Source of the DNA: a virus
IMG/VR virus record: IMGVR_UViG_3300035220_000447
Coordinates: 1 to 29,185 of that record
Reading direction: 5' to 3' (one strand)
DNA length: 29,185 nucleotides
Shown piece after piece: positions 1,092 to 12,550 of this stretch (position 1 is the first letter of the stretch; every line of letters starts with the position of its first letter). The position numbers were made by a program, and so were the translations under genes. Under the pieces are notes generated by a model. It was not told the DNA's origin, searched no databases, and saw only the letters and a list, made by a program, of their open reading frames with translations.

Positions 1092-1277
1092 ATGAAGCAC
1101 AGAAAATCCCTCACCATTCTCATGAAATCTTATGGGTTCGCCCTAGAGCGTGAGAGCAAGCACCTAGTCTGGAGGAATGCCGAGCGGGTGATGATCACCA
1201 CCAGCAGCACACCGTCAGACATCAACGCCATCCGACAGGTAGAGCGACAGATCAAGCGCAAACTTGCTGCAGTCTAG
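1092..1277 (+). CDS. Small HicA-like / dsRBD-fold protein, no partner seen
   Basis: This 61-aa protein has an order resembling HicA-type mRNA-interferase folds and related phage proteins. There is an N-terminal helix (KSLTILMKSYGF), a strand with a conserved-position His (ESKHLVWRN, His24), a second strand (RVMITTSSTPSD), and a C-terminal amphipathic helix rich in Arg/Gln (INAIRQVERQIKRKL). In HicA toxins the His is catalytic. Here the spacing fits loosely, and no HicB-like antitoxin follows, because the next gene is convergent. A stand-alone small RNA-binding or unknown phage protein is therefore as likely as a toxin. It starts 3 bases after the preceding stop and is the last gene of the G+C-rich block. 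Confidence 0.65.
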   Translation: MKHRKSLTILMKSYGFALERESKHLVWRNAERVMITTSSTPSDINAIRQVERQIKRKLAAV

Positions 1278-1287
1278 CACAGTATGA

Positions 1288-1305
1288 CACCCCCTAAGGG
1301 GGGTT
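1288..1305 (+). terminator. C5/G6 hairpin downstream of the small-gene block
   Basis: CCCCC (1290-1294), loop TAA, GGGGG (1298-1302) form a short strong stem 12 bases after the stop at 1277. Only TTAAAT follows, so termination would be weak. It lies in the 119-base convergent gap 1278-1396, which otherwise holds no gene I can support. Confidence 0.45.
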
Positions 1306-1373
1306 AAATGAAAAACGCCTTACTACCCTAACCTACAAAGGTTCCCAAACGACCGAAAGAATCTCTGTTTATA

Positions 1374-1396: not shown

Positions 1397-3022
1397 CTAA
1401 GAGTGGTAAGTGTCTCTAATCCAATCACAGATATAAGGTGATTTGTCGGCAGCATCATTCCACTTATCTTTGAGTGCTTGCTGCCTAGGTCCGATATGTT
1501 CTAAGAAAGCTTTCCAATACTTCGGACCTTTGAGAATATTATAATATACTAGACGATCCCAACTCACCTGTTTAAGAGCAGTAGTTTCGCACCCCACCAT
1601 AATAGCAGAAGTACCAGAGGTATCTTTCAGATTACCTTTATAGTATGCGAGTTTGAGTGTCTCCTTTGTGAAATAGTCTTCGCCATAATTGACAGGCATG
1701 GTATTTGCCCCTACGGGCGTTTGCGACCCATTATAGTCACGGTTACGAATATCTTTCCAGTATTGAGTATCATCTCTACGAGAGTATGCATAATGACATG
1801 ATACAAATTTACAGAGACCATCAAAGTCACCTCGGACCATTTGGTTATAATGATTAATATCAAGTCTATTATATCCATGGTCAGGTTGAAGGACCTCAGC
1901 AAGTTTCATAATAAACTCATGAGTAGTGAACAATCCAGTTGACTCTAAGGGTTCAATGAATCCTGCAGCGAGTCCAATTGCCACACAGTTTTGTTTCCAG
2001 GGTTCATGGTGGATACCGATTCTCATGCTGATATCTTTATATTCAAAGTCTTCTACCGAGCGGAGCTCTGAGGGGTATGCCATCTTGTCAGAGCGTAAGT
2101 ACGTTTTAAACTCATCTAGCGCAGCCTCTGGCGTAGTGTACTTATCGGAATAGACATATCCTGTACCGATACGAGAGTAACAGGGGATATTCCAACACCA
2201 ACCATTACCAAGAGCAGTTGCATTAGTCCATGGTTGCATTTCAATACGTTTATCAGTATATGGAATCTTAGTTGCCCATGCACGATTGTTAGGAATCAGA
2301 TGACCGTAATCAATAAACTCATTATCAAGTTCATTCATCAGGATAGATTTCCATCCGGTACAATCAATATACAGATCACCTTCAACAATCGTACCATCAT
2401 CTAGGACAACATTTTCAATTCCATCTTCATTGACATTGACTTTAACGACGGTAGCAGGGATATGAGTGACCCCTCTAGGTATTGCAACATTATCTCGTAA
2501 AAAGTTAGCAAATTTAATTGCATCAAAGTGGAATGCACTATTACGCTCCCATTTAAAATTCTTAAAAATATTGTCATTGCCTGGATGGTATCTGTTCTTA
2601 TGGACAAGTGCCATTTGTGACCAGAAACTATCTGCATAATCTTGTACAGGAGTCTCGGGATATAGTATTTTTTTATATTGCCATACATCCAATCCATGTT
2701 CACCATACAAACTTTCTGGTTTATGTGCATGACCAAATGGATAGTGGAACGTTCCAGAATCTTTTTTATAGAAATCAGTAAATCCAAGACTTAACTTAAC
2801 TGATGCATCAGCATGTTTGTATAAATCGGACTTTGGAATACCCATGGCATGAAGCCAGTATGTAAAATGTTCTAGTGTACTTTCTCCAACTCCGACTCTT
2901 GGAACATTTTTACTTTCAATACAAGTAATGTTTTTATTTGGGAAATATTTGTTCAACGTAACCGCAGAGAACCATCCAGCAGTTCCACCACCAACTATAA
3001 CAATCCGATCTGTGGAATTCAT
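1397..3022 (-). CDS. Flavin-dependent (tryptophan-type) halogenase
   Basis: This 541-aa protein is the length of PrnA/RebH-type enzymes. These use reduced FAD, O2 and halide to halogenate aromatic substrates through hypohalous acid held by an active-site Lys. Visible features are the FAD dinucleotide motif GGGTAGW (11-17), GVGES (44-48), a Lys at the PrnA Lys79 position (Lys76), the halogenase signature WCWNIP (275-280), and EPLESTG (357-363). Glu360 should match PrnA Glu346, and Thr362/Gly363 the halide site. All key residues are present, so an active enzyme is expected. A cyanophage homologue, VirX1 of phage Syn10, was reported to prefer iodide; similarity here is inferred. A separate flavin reductase is required and none is seen. 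It is the only minus-strand gene, convergent with the 5' block and divergent from the tail region, and looks like a separately expressed accessory gene. Confidence 0.93.
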   Translation of the reverse strand: MNSTDRIVIVGGGTAGWFSAVTLNKYFPNKNITCIESKNVPRVGVGESTLEHFTYWLHAMGIPKSDLYKHADASVKLSLGFTDFYKKDSGTFHYPFGHAHKPESLYGEHGLDVWQYKKILYPETPVQDYADSFWSQMALVHKNRYHPGNDNIFKNFKWERNSAFHFDAIKFANFLRDNVAIPRGVTHIPATVVKVNVNEDGIENVVLDDGTIVEGDLYIDCTGWKSILMNELDNEFIDYGHLIPNNRAWATKIPYTDKRIEMQPWTNATALGNGWCWNIPCYSRIGTGYVYSDKYTTPEAALDEFKTYLRSDKMAYPSELRSVEDFEYKDISMRIGIHHEPWKQNCVAIGLAAGFIEPLESTGLFTTHEFIMKLAEVLQPDHGYNRLDINHYNQMVRGDFDGLCKFVSCHYAYSRRDDTQYWKDIRNRDYNGSQTPVGANTMPVNYGEDYFTKETLKLAYYKGNLKDTSGTSAIMVGCETTALKQVSWDRLVYYNILKGPKYWKAFLEHIGPRQQALKDKWNDAADKSPYICDWIRDTYHS

Positions 3023-4029: not shown

Positions 4030-5024
4030 TTTATAGCGATTATAATGGTCTTCCTGGATCTACATCTACTTACGACTATGAAAGTGGTGCAGAGAAACCA
4101 ATTCTCCCTGCAGTAAACTTATACAATAGTTTTTCCTTTACTGTTAAGAGTAGCAATATTAATGCTGGAGTTCCACCTACCACACAAGAAGGTGCGGGAA
4201 GAACTGACGTAACCTATAGTAATTCCACAAACTATAACACTAGAGGTTATAGGTATGGTAGTAGCACTAGGAAACCTAGTGGGGCATATGGTGGAGTTCA
4301 TGTAGCAAGAATTCCCACTGCTATGCGCTGGGTAGATACTTTAGGTCCTAACGGCGATGGGATTGCCCAAAATGAAAAAGGCGATTGGTTTAGTCGTGAT
4401 GTTCTGTCTAAAGCAGATGGGAACGGTGGCGGTGTCAATTTTACAACGAATGTCGCTCCGAGTGGCAACACATCCTTTACATTAGTCACAGATACTGATG
4501 ATGAGCAGGGTTCTGCATCATTTACTGTCCCTGATTGGAATACTCTTACAATCAAGGGTTCTTACAATGCTTCCGTATTTTGCTACAACGAATTTGGTTA
4601 TACGAATGATTATGTAGGTGGTACTTATGAGGCGAATAGTCTTTGGGAACTTCCTGATAAGTTTGATAACCTTTATAAGTTTATTCCTGATCAGCGAGAG
4701 TCAACTACTCTTAAATTTACGATTGAAGTTGATTGGCAAGTATATTCAGGTTTTGGTATCTATAATGTAAATGACATTGGAACTGCAAATCTGACTAAAA
4801 TTGCTAATCGTATGGGATATAATAATCTATCTGGGCAAACCGGAACTGATACTCATGTTATTACTCACGTTATCAATAACAGTAATAATGATTGGGAAAA
4901 AATTCTAAACGACCTGTTAAATAATAGACAAAGATCACAGGCAGAGCAGCATGAACGTTATGGTCAGACGTTCCCTCAGACTGACATTCTGTTCACTCAA
5001 CCAAAACCAGTTACAGACTCATGA
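4014..5024 (+). CDS. Probable virion structural protein of unknown role (336 aa)
   Basis: This 336-aa protein has no signal peptide or membrane helix. It is rich in Ser, Thr, Asn, Tyr and Gly, with many predicted beta strands, as in phage tail proteins. Recognisable segments include an N-terminal SDYNGLPGST, a Tyr/Arg/Gly-rich linker (residues 68-95), a central WFSRDVLSKADGNGGG region, and a more helical C-terminus (NDWEKILNDLLNNRQRSQAEQHERYG). No family can be named. It has no lysozyme motif, so it is not the gp5 hub-lysozyme. Its stop region overlaps the PAAR gene start by 4 bases (ATGA), which suggests a role near the central spike or baseplate hub. Confidence 0.7.
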   Translation: MSYTIVYSDYNGLPGSTSTYDYESGAEKPILPAVNLYNSFSFTVKSSNINAGVPPTTQEGAGRTDVTYSNSTNYNTRGYRYGSSTRKPSGAYGGVHVARIPTAMRWVDTLGPNGDGIAQNEKGDWFSRDVLSKADGNGGGVNFTTNVAPSGNTSFTLVTDTDDEQGSASFTVPDWNTLTIKGSYNASVFCYNEFGYTNDYVGGTYEANSLWELPDKFDNLYKFIPDQRESTTLKFTIEVDWQVYSGFGIYNVNDIGTANLTKIANRMGYNNLSGQTGTDTHVITHVINNSNNDWEKILNDLLNNRQRSQAEQHERYGQTFPQTDILFTQPKPVTDS

Positions 5025-5332
5025 GTTTAAGATCAGCAGGTAGAATTTCAGATCCTTATTTGAAGAGGTGTACTGTACCTATTCAAGGAACTGGTGCGCC
5101 TAATGTTTTTATTGAGCAATTAGCTGCTTCTAGAATTGGTGATGTGACTATTCCTTATCAGGAAATAGTTCCATGCCCTAAGTGTTGTAAAACTCATGTA
5201 GCGCCTGTTATTACAGGATCTCCAAAAGTTTTTATTAATCAACTTGCTGCAGAAAAAATTGGTGATCTTGCACTTGGTATTACAGGTTCGTTCCCACTAG
5301 TTAAAGGTGCGATAACGGTATACATGATATGA
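5021..5332 (+). CDS. PAAR-motif spike-tip protein
   Basis: This 103-aa protein has two copies of the PAAR-type repeat, APNVFIEQLAASRIGD (26-41) and SPKVFINQLAAEKIGD (67-82), plus the typical ITG segment before the second copy. PAAR proteins form a sharp metal-stabilised cone on the trimeric central spike of contractile tails (T4 gp5.4) and type VI secretion systems. Between the repeats lies CPKCCKTH (residues 52-59), adding four potential metal ligands. The gene overlaps the upstream structural gene by 4 bases (ATGA) and the downstream Gly-rich gene by 4 bases (ATGA), so the three are probably translated in series. The family assignment is strong; the Cys-rich metal site is inference. Confidence 0.9.
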   Translation: MSLRSAGRISDPYLKRCTVPIQGTGAPNVFIEQLAASRIGDVTIPYQEIVPCPKCCKTHVAPVITGSPKVFINQLAAEKIGDLALGITGSFPLVKGAITVYMI

Positions 5333-10297: not shown

Positions 10298-10699
10298 ATG
10301 GCGCTTTTACCGTCAAGATCTTATAAAGACTTAAGTTTTACCTTCAAAATTAACCCGTTGAAGAAAGATCTTGCTATCCTTAAGGATGAGAATGCTATTA
10401 AGAGAGCACTTCTCAACTTATTCTCATACAGAAAAGGTGAAAAGTTTTTTAATCCGACATTTGGTAGCGGAATTCCTGATTTATTGTTTGAACCCTTTGA
10501 TTTTGTTACAGGGGGATCAATTAAAAGCGAAATTGAAAGTTTAATTACTTTATATGAACCTAGAATAACCTTATTAGAAGTTGTTATTGATTTGGATGAG
10601 TCCAATTATGAGTATGGGGTTCAGATTGTATATTTGATACCTGATAGTGGTCAGGTTAATAATGTTACATTATCATTACCATCTTCATCTAGAATATAA
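10298..10699 (+). CDS. 25: Baseplate wedge subunit gp25 (GPW/gp25 family)
   Basis: This 133-aa protein is about the length of T4 gp25. It shows the family pattern: an N-terminal region leading to a helix with NAIKRALLNLFSYRKGEKFFNP, then FGSGIPDLLFEP, a second helix ending in the conserved EPR (YEPRITLLEV), and a final beta segment. gp25 joins gp6, gp7 and gp53 in the wedge and contacts the first sheath ring; related proteins occur in type VI secretion (TssE). The stop codon directly abuts the gp6 ATG, the order found in T4-like cyanophages. Transcription probably starts at the late element overlapping the preceding gene. Confidence 0.95.
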   Translation: MALLPSRSYKDLSFTFKINPLKKDLAILKDENAIKRALLNLFSYRKGEKFFNPTFGSGIPDLLFEPFDFVTGGSIKSEIESLITLYEPRITLLEVVIDLDESNYEYGVQIVYLIPDSGQVNNVTLSLPSSSRI

Positions 10700-12550
10700 A
10701 TGGCATTCGCACAAGTAAGTTCTTTAGACTACGCTGATATCAAAGCGACTCTAATTGATTATTTAAAACGTAATAGTGATTTCACAGACTACGACTTTGA
10801 AGGATCAAGCCTAGCAGCGGTGGTTGATCTTTTGGCGTATAACACTTATTATACTGCTTTCAATACAACGATGGCAGTTAATGAGAGTTTTCTGTCGTCT
10901 GCCTCATTACGAGATAATATTGTTAAAGTTGCGAAGCAATTAGGATATACTCCAAAATCTACAACTTCATCACAAGCATTTGTTCAACTTAAAGTTGATT
11001 TTACCGCTTTGGCAGCAGTTGACCAAAGATTGGTTCCGTCATTTTTGACTTTAAAGAAAGGAAATTGCTTTATTTCATCAAATCCAGAATCTAGACAAGA
11101 AACGTTTCAGTTTGCTACTTTAGAGGATGTAGTTTCTCCTGTAACTAACAATATTTGCCTTATTTCAAATGTTGTGAATGACCAATTAAGAGCTACTGAA
11201 GGAATTTATCTGAATACCACATATTTGGTTGATAATACTACTCCAAATCAAAAATTTATTATCCCTACAATAAATGTAGATACTTCAAGTATCAGAGTAT
11301 CTGTAAGGGAGTCTGCTAATTCTACGAATAAAGAAAATTATACATTAGCAGAAAATATTTTAGATATTGGATCTACCCACAAAGTATTTTTTGTTCAGGA
11401 AACTGATGATTCTCAATACGAGTTATTATTTGGTGATGGAGTTTTAGGAAAGAAGTTATCAGATAATAATATCATTGAAGTTTCATATTTGCTTTCTTCT
11501 GGAGAGTCTGCAAATAAATTAAAGAACTTTGTTTTTTCTGGTGAAATTTATGATGAATCTCTCAATAGAATTCTGACCGGAATTACTACTACTGTAATAA
11601 ATGGAAGTGAAGGAGGAGACGATATTGAAAGTGAGACGGTAATTAAGAGAAATGCTCCTAAATTTTATTCTTCTCAAAATAGAGCAGTCACTTTAGATGA
11701 TTATAAAGTAATCACACAGAGACTTTACTCAGCAATTGCTGATATTATTGTATATGGTGGTGAAACTGAAGAACCGCCCGAATATGGCAGAGTTAAAATT
11801 GCAATTAAACCTAAGTTTAGTGATAGCTTAAGTAATTCCACAAAAAGAGATATTTTAACTAAATTAAAGAAATTTACCGTTGCTTCTGTAACCCCTGTTA
11901 TTATAGATCCATCTATCGTTGATGTATTAGTAAATAGTAAAATTTACTATAGAAGTACTGATACCAACCTAACACATGAGCAGTTAAGAAATGTTGTTAT
12001 TGAAAATCTTACTCAATATCGTGATACTAATAGCATTAATAAATTTGGCGGTAGAATTAGAAAAAGTAAGGTTGCTACAGTTATTGATGCTGCCGAACGT
12101 TCTATCAGTGGTAACGTAACTGCAATTTCTTTGAGAAAGAAAATTAAACCTGCATTGAGTACAAACGCTCACTACTTACTTTGTTATAAAAATCCGTTCA
12201 GAAAATTTTGCGACAATAAAACTAACATTTCAAGTACTGTATTCAGAACGGTCAATTTTCCAAATACTGATTCGTATATGGAGAATATTGAGGACGGTAC
12301 AATTAGAATATATACTATTGACACAAGTACCGCAACTAAGAAAATTTTAATTGAAAATGTAGGAAAAGTTGACTTTGTAAAAGGTGATATAACTATTAAT
12401 CAAATTAATTTTGTTAGTGGATCAAATGCCGATAATGAAATTTTTATCCAAGCGGTCCCTGATAATGATGATATCCTCGCAGTGAGAGAGGTATATTTAA
12501 ACCTTTCGGTAGAAGATAGTCTGTTCCAGATATTCCAGGAAAACGTCTAA
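10700..12550 (+). CDS. 6: Baseplate wedge subunit gp6 (J-like family)
   Basis: The 616 aa are close to T4 gp6. The N-terminus has the strongly conserved layout of the cyanophage family: SLDYADIKATLIDYLKRN, DYDFEGSSLAAVVDLLAYN, NESFLSSASLRDNIVKVAKQLGYTP. Further features are YELLFGDGVLGKKL (around residue 245), the segment RNAPKFYSSQNRAVTLDDYK (around 316-335) typical of gpJ/gp6 proteins, and a long beta-rich C-terminus. gp6 dimers form the ring that ties the wedges together around the hub and undergo the switch on contraction. The start follows the gp25 stop with no gap, and the stop is 1 base before the next ATG. Confidence 0.93.
   Translation: MAFAQVSSLDYADIKATLIDYLKRNSDFTDYDFEGSSLAAVVDLLAYNTYYTAFNTTMAVNESFLSSASLRDNIVKVAKQLGYTPKSTTSSQAFVQLKVDFTALAAVDQRLVPSFLTLKKGNCFISSNPESRQETFQFATLEDVVSPVTNNICLISNVVNDQLRATEGIYLNTTYLVDNTTPNQKFIIPTINVDTSSIRVSVRESANSTNKENYTLAENILDIGSTHKVFFVQETDDSQYELLFGDGVLGKKLSDNNIIEVSYLLSSGESANKLKNFVFSGEIYDESLNRILTGITTTVINGSEGGDDIESETVIKRNAPKFYSSQNRAVTLDDYKVITQRLYSAIADIIVYGGETEEPPEYGRVKIAIKPKFSDSLSNSTKRDILTKLKKFTVASVTPVIIDPSIVDVLVNSKIYYRSTDTNLTHEQLRNVVIENLTQYRDTNSINKFGGRIRKSKVATVIDAAERSISGNVTAISLRKKIKPALSTNAHYLLCYKNPFRKFCDNKTNISSTVFRTVNFPNTDSYMENIEDGTIRIYTIDTSTATKKILIENVGKVDFVKGDITINQINFVSGSNADNEIFIQAVPDNDDILAVREVYLNLSVEDSLFQIFQENV

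Follow-up and report, generated by a model that had tools for sequence, protein, structure and literature searches.

A VirX1-like flavin-dependent halogenase, predicted to be active, encoded antisense to its neighbours in a T4-like phage of cyanophage type

Introduction

Flavin-dependent halogenases have long been annotated in phage genomes, and one of them, VirX1 from cyanophage Syn10 (PDB 6qgm), has been characterised. VirX1 uses K79 as its catalytic lysine, has an open pocket that bulky substrates fit, and is reported to prefer iodide (PMC8407142). The N-terminal start of VirX1 matches Syn10 CPUG_00131 exactly, the second of two tandem halogenase genes, which shares the strand of its neighbours and adjoins fibre and 2OG oxygenase genes. 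Four substrate regions have been defined, and VirX1, BrvH and others make up group C, which is without the Trp4 motif (PMC8269204). Phage annotations and papers still use the name "tryptophan halogenase" for such proteins. As to what a phage halogenase does during infection, alteration of host metabolites has been proposed (PMC10452541), as has protection by an antibiotic, an idea that its own proposers termed speculative (PMC2984593).

We analysed a relative of these enzymes encoded on a 29.2-kb IMG/VR fragment (29,185 nucleotides; the whole stretch is referred to as the window). Like VirX1, it is a phage-encoded group C protein with the same predicted fold and the same Lys/Glu pair; unlike the halogenases of the cultured Synechococcus phages S-H35/S-B64 and Sf-CH11, which occupy other genome positions and are co-stranded with their neighbours, it is encoded antisense to the genes around it. 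We consider it rather likely that the locus encodes a working, FADH2-dependent group C halogenase, carried as antisense accessory cargo of a T4-like phage and equipped with a divergent promoter of its own.

Results

An intact reading frame with conserved catalytic motifs

The halogenase gene (Table 1) opens with ATG and reads through 541 codons with no internal stops. Its product matched the PF04820 profile with E=5.4e-97, scoring 326 bits where the cut-off is 21, and PHROG 2928, "tryptophan halogenase", with E=6.9e-134, both far above chance. A second contig, IMGVR_UViG_3300028197_001049 (78.8 kb), encodes a 100% identical halogenase and is 99.986% identical to the window over the full window length, reaching 49 kb beyond it on the right and 0.36 kb on the left. 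The four differences between the two (6600, 7278, 7281 and 7287) all fall inside the gene for the Gly-rich 1361-aa protein. A peptide-pattern search for near relatives of the halogenase recovered the identical copy alone, and at the DNA level each cultured-phage record covered at most about 1% of the window.

Table 1. Features of the halogenase locus and its surroundings, in window coordinates
Feature	Position	Strand	Basis or remark
Last small G+C-rich gene, phrog_2053	1092..1277	+	Convergent with halogenase
G+C-rich hairpin ACCCCC ... GGGGGT	1288..1304	.	Between convergent genes; kept in L025; without T-run
Noncoding element core CCCTAACCTACAAAGGTTCCC	1322..1352	+	Matches 273 cyanophage records; A/T tail 1371-1388
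Halogenase CDS, 541 aa, VirX1-like, group C	1397..3022	-	Profile, motif and model evidence
EPLESTG, residues 357-363, with catalytic Glu360	1934..1954	-	Alignment
WCWNIP (WxWxIP motif), residues 275-280	2183..2200	-	Sequence motif
Lys76, catalytic lysine, in SVKLS	2795..2797	-	Equivalent of VirX1 K79
GGGTAGW, dinucleotide-binding motif, residues 11-17	2972..2992	-	Sequence motif
35-nt block perfectly conserved with L025	3044..3078	.	Divergent intergenic region; conservation
Divergent neighbour, 55 aa	3096..3263	+	85% identical in sibling phage
Glutaredoxin, 78 aa, PF00462	3282..3518	+	Divergent neighbour; also beside halogenase in L023, L025
PAAR protein gene	5021..5332	+	Earliest gene of late operon recognised as baseplate
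Gly-rich (21% Gly) structural/adhesin-like protein, 1361 aa	5329..9414	+	Weak Ig match
Baseplate wedge genes gp25, gp6	10298..12550	+	Annotation

The protein carries both the GxGxxG and the WxWxIP motifs that mark flavin-dependent halogenases. A preliminary description of this DNA had read an intact catalytic apparatus from GGGTAGW, Lys76, WCWNIP and Glu360 in EPLESTG, and all four were confirmed in place; the motifs are also near-invariant across 141 viral homologues, with K76 kept in 140 and E360 in 130. That description had named a missing Lys/Glu pair in an alignment as evidence against the assignment, and the pair was found to be kept, as it is in all 77 bacterial homologues (77/77 for both residues) and in close viral relatives (Lys76 in 40/40, Glu360 in 39/40).

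An AlphaFold model built with 40 aligned viral sequences as input had a mean pLDDT of 89.9 and a pTM of 0.88. Its sole poor part, C-terminal residues 434-451 (pLDDT <50), belongs to the 434-475 stretch that gives the substrate site its shape. Six VirX1 chains ranked top in a Foldseek search with the model (TM 0.89), and VIA-align superposed 509 residues on VirX1 at 1.9 Å (Z 46.0), as compared to 453-485 residues at 2.2-3.5 Å (Z 37-49) for other halogenases of the same fold; it is alignment length and RMSD, and not Z by itself, that put VirX1 top. Together, the motifs and the model predict an intact and active flavin-dependent halogenase.

Could the protein instead be a degenerate or non-halogenating flavoprotein, retained for another role? 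It has diverged quickly, being 48% identical to its counterpart in a sibling phage (L025, described below) as compared to 59-85% for most neighbouring proteins, and 11/141 viral paralogues have lost Glu360. However, the window reading frame is full length and its catalytic motifs are all intact, as are those of L025 and of 39 or 40 out of 40 close relatives; together, these points make this reading very unlikely. The nearby Gly-rich protein is likewise only ∼44-50% identical between the two phages. The third codon positions of the two halogenase genes are 44% identical, i.e., saturated, and the nearest non-identical relatives of the halogenase are ∼50% identical to it.

Relationship to VirX1 and other phage halogenases

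Relatives of the window enzyme are encoded on at least 588 viral stretches; it thus belongs to a common, already described group of phage halogenases that is mostly uncultured. In a FastTree phylogeny of 218 sequences, where some long branches meet among distant paralogues, the window and L025 proteins were sisters (support 99) and nested in an 87-row clade (support 99) whose only cultured lineages were S-H35/S-B64 and Sf-CH11. These are the nearest cultured relatives, at 49.9% (S-H35/S-B64) and 48.7% (Sf-CH11) identity over residues 1-428. A 101-row clade (support 100) encloses the 87-row clade together with VirX1, which sits on a separate branch. Every row of the larger clade is viral but one, L103, from a contig of a "Deltaproteobacteria" MAG (JABDFK010000005.1) with a halogenase 52% identical to the window enzyme; this contig may come from a misbinned phage or contain a prophage. 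Cyanophages often carry two halogenase genes in tandem (L004, L006, L008 and L011), and the human faecal phage records MT835646.1 and MT837902.1 encode halogenase-like proteins ∼30% identical to that of the window.

The suggestion in the preliminary description that VirX1 is a relative therefore stands in part: the two enzymes share a viral clade, and VirX1 is the best fold match, but they are 37.6% identical and belong to different subclades. Because of this distance, the iodide preference, which is known for VirX1 alone, cannot be transferred to the window enzyme on the sequence comparison. We know of no sequence marker for iodide preference.

A group C enzyme without the Trp4 motif

The tryptophan halogenases PrnA, RebH, PyrH and SttH share the fold, FAD motif, WxWxIP motif and catalytic Lys and Glu with the window enzyme, to which they are 27-31% identical. 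Comparison with PrnA and RebH, as the preliminary description had proposed, gave a clear outcome: the Trp4 substrate motif is missing. Neither of the two Trp4 patterns (groups A and B) was present in the window protein, whereas the same search in 77 bacterial homologues, used as a positive control, found pattern A in 2 and pattern B in 11. The equivalents of Trp1 and Trp2 are STLEHF and YPFGH, similar to STLGHF and YPFGP in VirX1, and beyond about residue 430 the sequence no longer resembles tryptophan halogenases. Because the Trp4 motif is missing, the window enzyme is assigned by sequence to the VirX1/BrvH type (group C) and not to the PrnA/RebH type.

This bears on the reading, stated in phage annotations and several cyanophage papers, of such proteins as true tryptophan halogenases, which as with prnA would make chlorotryptophan on the way to an antibiotic that shields the host during infection. 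While the Pfam family and fold are indeed common to PrnA and RebH, the absence of both Trp4 patterns, the loss of likeness past about residue 430, and the count of zero other pyrrolnitrin-type genes among the annotated genes of the window and longer contig leave this reading scarcely credible for the window enzyme, and the antibiotic role was offered as speculation to begin with.

Reducing power

No flavin reductase of families PF01613 or PF03358 was found in the window or the 78.8-kb contig, in agreement with the earlier statement that no reductase gene lies nearby, and neither family was found in 15 complete halogenase-bearing phage genomes. Since both are missing from the contig and from these genomes, FADH2 is likely supplied by the host, as judged from the two reductase families checked. 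Synechococcus elongatus encodes both.

An antisense gene behind a conserved upstream block

The halogenase is co-stranded with both neighbours at 59 of 73 viral loci, and the window-type layout is in the minority. Within the window, it is the sole substantial minus-strand gene. The preliminary description had called it alone on the minus strand, which is true of the window but not of the longer contig, where a second minus-strand pair lies at about 50651-52299 (window coordinates; L020:6148-7793). One protein of that pair is oxygenase-like and matches DUF6445/phrog_1644 ("minor coat protein"); its partner matches nothing.

The same antisense layout is found in the sibling phage (IMG/VR contig 3300017770_000069, L025) and in contigs L239 and L241 of the same species as L025, with the same flanks and conserved blocks. 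The gene order that the window shares with these contigs runs from the 55-aa protein through glutaredoxin, a 65-aa protein, a 336-aa protein, PAAR and the Gly-rich protein to gp25 and gp6. A glutaredoxin gene divergent to the halogenase is seen in three separate phages, those of the window, L023 (5313-5549) and L025 (7503-7739), the latter two products being 37-59% identical to that of the window.

Between the halogenase and its divergent neighbour, 21 nt ahead of the halogenase start codon, lies the 35-nt block that is perfectly conserved with L025; the longest perfect match inside the two 1.6-kb halogenase genes themselves is 21 nt. Facing the halogenase, the block has a TATAAT-like box, and facing the plus-strand genes, one of TATAAA type. 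A sigma-70 promoter scan of the window found no more promoter-like sites than in shuffled sequence, and a terminator scan was likewise not above shuffled sequence. It is thus the perfect conservation, as opposed to any match to a consensus, that supports the block as a candidate conserved divergent promoter. The separate regulation suggested earlier gains support from this block and from the retention of the layout in L025.

Probable insertion between a noncoding element and the baseplate operon

Downstream of the halogenase, between its stop codon and the small plus-strand genes, lies a noncoding element with the core CCCTAACCTACAAAGGTTCCC at 1325-1345, which matches 273 phage records, cyanophages without exception, at about one copy per genome. 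In 12 examined records, the element comes after a small-gene cluster and is closely followed by the opening gene of the operon that runs on to the baseplate genes, with PAAR, gp25 and gp6 downstream where the stretch reaches that far. None of the 12 has an annotated halogenase after the element, and in S-H35 the halogenase lies elsewhere in the genome. The A/T tail of the element in the window and L025 instead points to the halogenase 3' end, and L025 has a tRNA-Met gene in the same slot. Normally the baseplate operon follows the element; in these two phages the halogenase intervenes, so this gene, along with the short genes behind it, is probably cargo inserted between element and operon.

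An Rfam search of the window, L025 and the surroundings of the element returned nothing even at E 1, and the five pairs considered for covariation showed no compensatory changes, leaving RNA structure unsupported. A leader RNA, a promoter, an origin or a packaging site are all possible functions. The G+C-rich hairpin between the convergent genes may act as a terminator. Base composition breaks at the halogenase: the small genes at 161-1277 have 50-51% GC (GC3 58-69%), and the halogenase and structural genes 32-40% (GC3 21-31%).

The phage and its host

By its gene content, the phage is T4-like, of cyanophage type, with gp25, gp6 and further baseplate genes to the right of the halogenase. The longer contig encodes a major capsid protein that shares 68.7% identity with its Synechococcus and Prochlorococcus phage counterparts. 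A cyanobacterial host is probable, since the noncoding element was found in cyanophage records only. The psbA gene was not found on the 78.8-kb contig, which is partial, and anti-phage defence profiles gave no matches.

Oxygenase neighbours and the question of substrate

In 13 of 15 complete genomes, a 2OG-Fe(II) oxygenase gene lies within 2 kb of the halogenase, as compared to 3.7 expected, and none of 5000 random placements reached this adjacency, although the 15 phages share ancestry and the effective number is smaller than 15. The same holds within 3 kb in 29 of 50 uncultured relatives, and Sf-CH11 has 2OG oxygenases on the flanks of its halogenase, unlike the window. Fibre-like genes just precede the halogenase in Syn10, S-RIM44, S-CREM1, P-RSM6, S-WAM1 and S-SZBM1. 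The co-location of halogenase and oxygenase suggests a common job, such as modification of virion proteins. By this account, the halogenase would modify aromatic residues of the phage's own tail fibres or Gly-rich adhesins, with the oxygenases hydroxylating them. The open VirX1 pocket accepts bulky substrates (PMC8407142).

Several observations weigh against this for the window enzyme. No 2OG oxygenase is near the halogenase in the window, L025, S-H35, L043 or L100, none lies upstream within ∼8 kb on the longer contig or in L025, and the nearest on the longer contig is ∼50 kb away. Gly-rich protein genes show a weak enrichment near halogenases, with P 0.03 at 2 kb and no significance at 4-6 kb, the genomes behind the oxygenase association are not independent, and free Tyr or Phe is reported not to have been halogenated by the halogenases tested in PMC8269204. 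Modification of virion proteins by the window enzyme is therefore unlikely in our estimation. A broader version, in which group C phage halogenases act with adjoining 2OG-Fe(II) oxygenases as a system for post-translational halogenation and hydroxylation of phage adhesins or other virion proteins, with the window enzyme as a relocated, independently regulated member, we hold to be distinctly unlikely. Because no oxygenase is nearby and the Gly-rich enrichment is weak, a small-molecule target is favoured here: indole- or phenol-like host small molecules are the most likely targets on present sequence evidence, with an exposed aromatic protein residue second.

Discussion

The preferred reading is that of a working group C halogenase, fed by the host and carried as separately expressed cargo. 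The host would reduce FAD, and the halogenase would join FADH2, O2 and a halide, which is abundant in seawater, to give hypohalous acid. This would pass to Lys76 and then to the target, with Glu360 activating the latter. The target would be an electron-rich aromatic in an open pocket that does not appear built for free tryptophan. The gene itself would have entered in antisense orientation between the noncoding element and the baseplate operon, with expression from its own divergent promoter.

What is new here is the placement of a phage halogenase as an insert antisense to its surroundings and preceded by conserved DNA of its own, along with the tendency of its relatives to adjoin 2OG oxygenase genes. 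The substrate question is now open to concrete experiments, given an enzyme that is predicted not to be of the tryptophan type, two reductase families that are not phage-encoded, and the oxygenase neighbours of its relatives. Conservation of both the slot and the upstream block suggests cargo that is under selection for separate expression.
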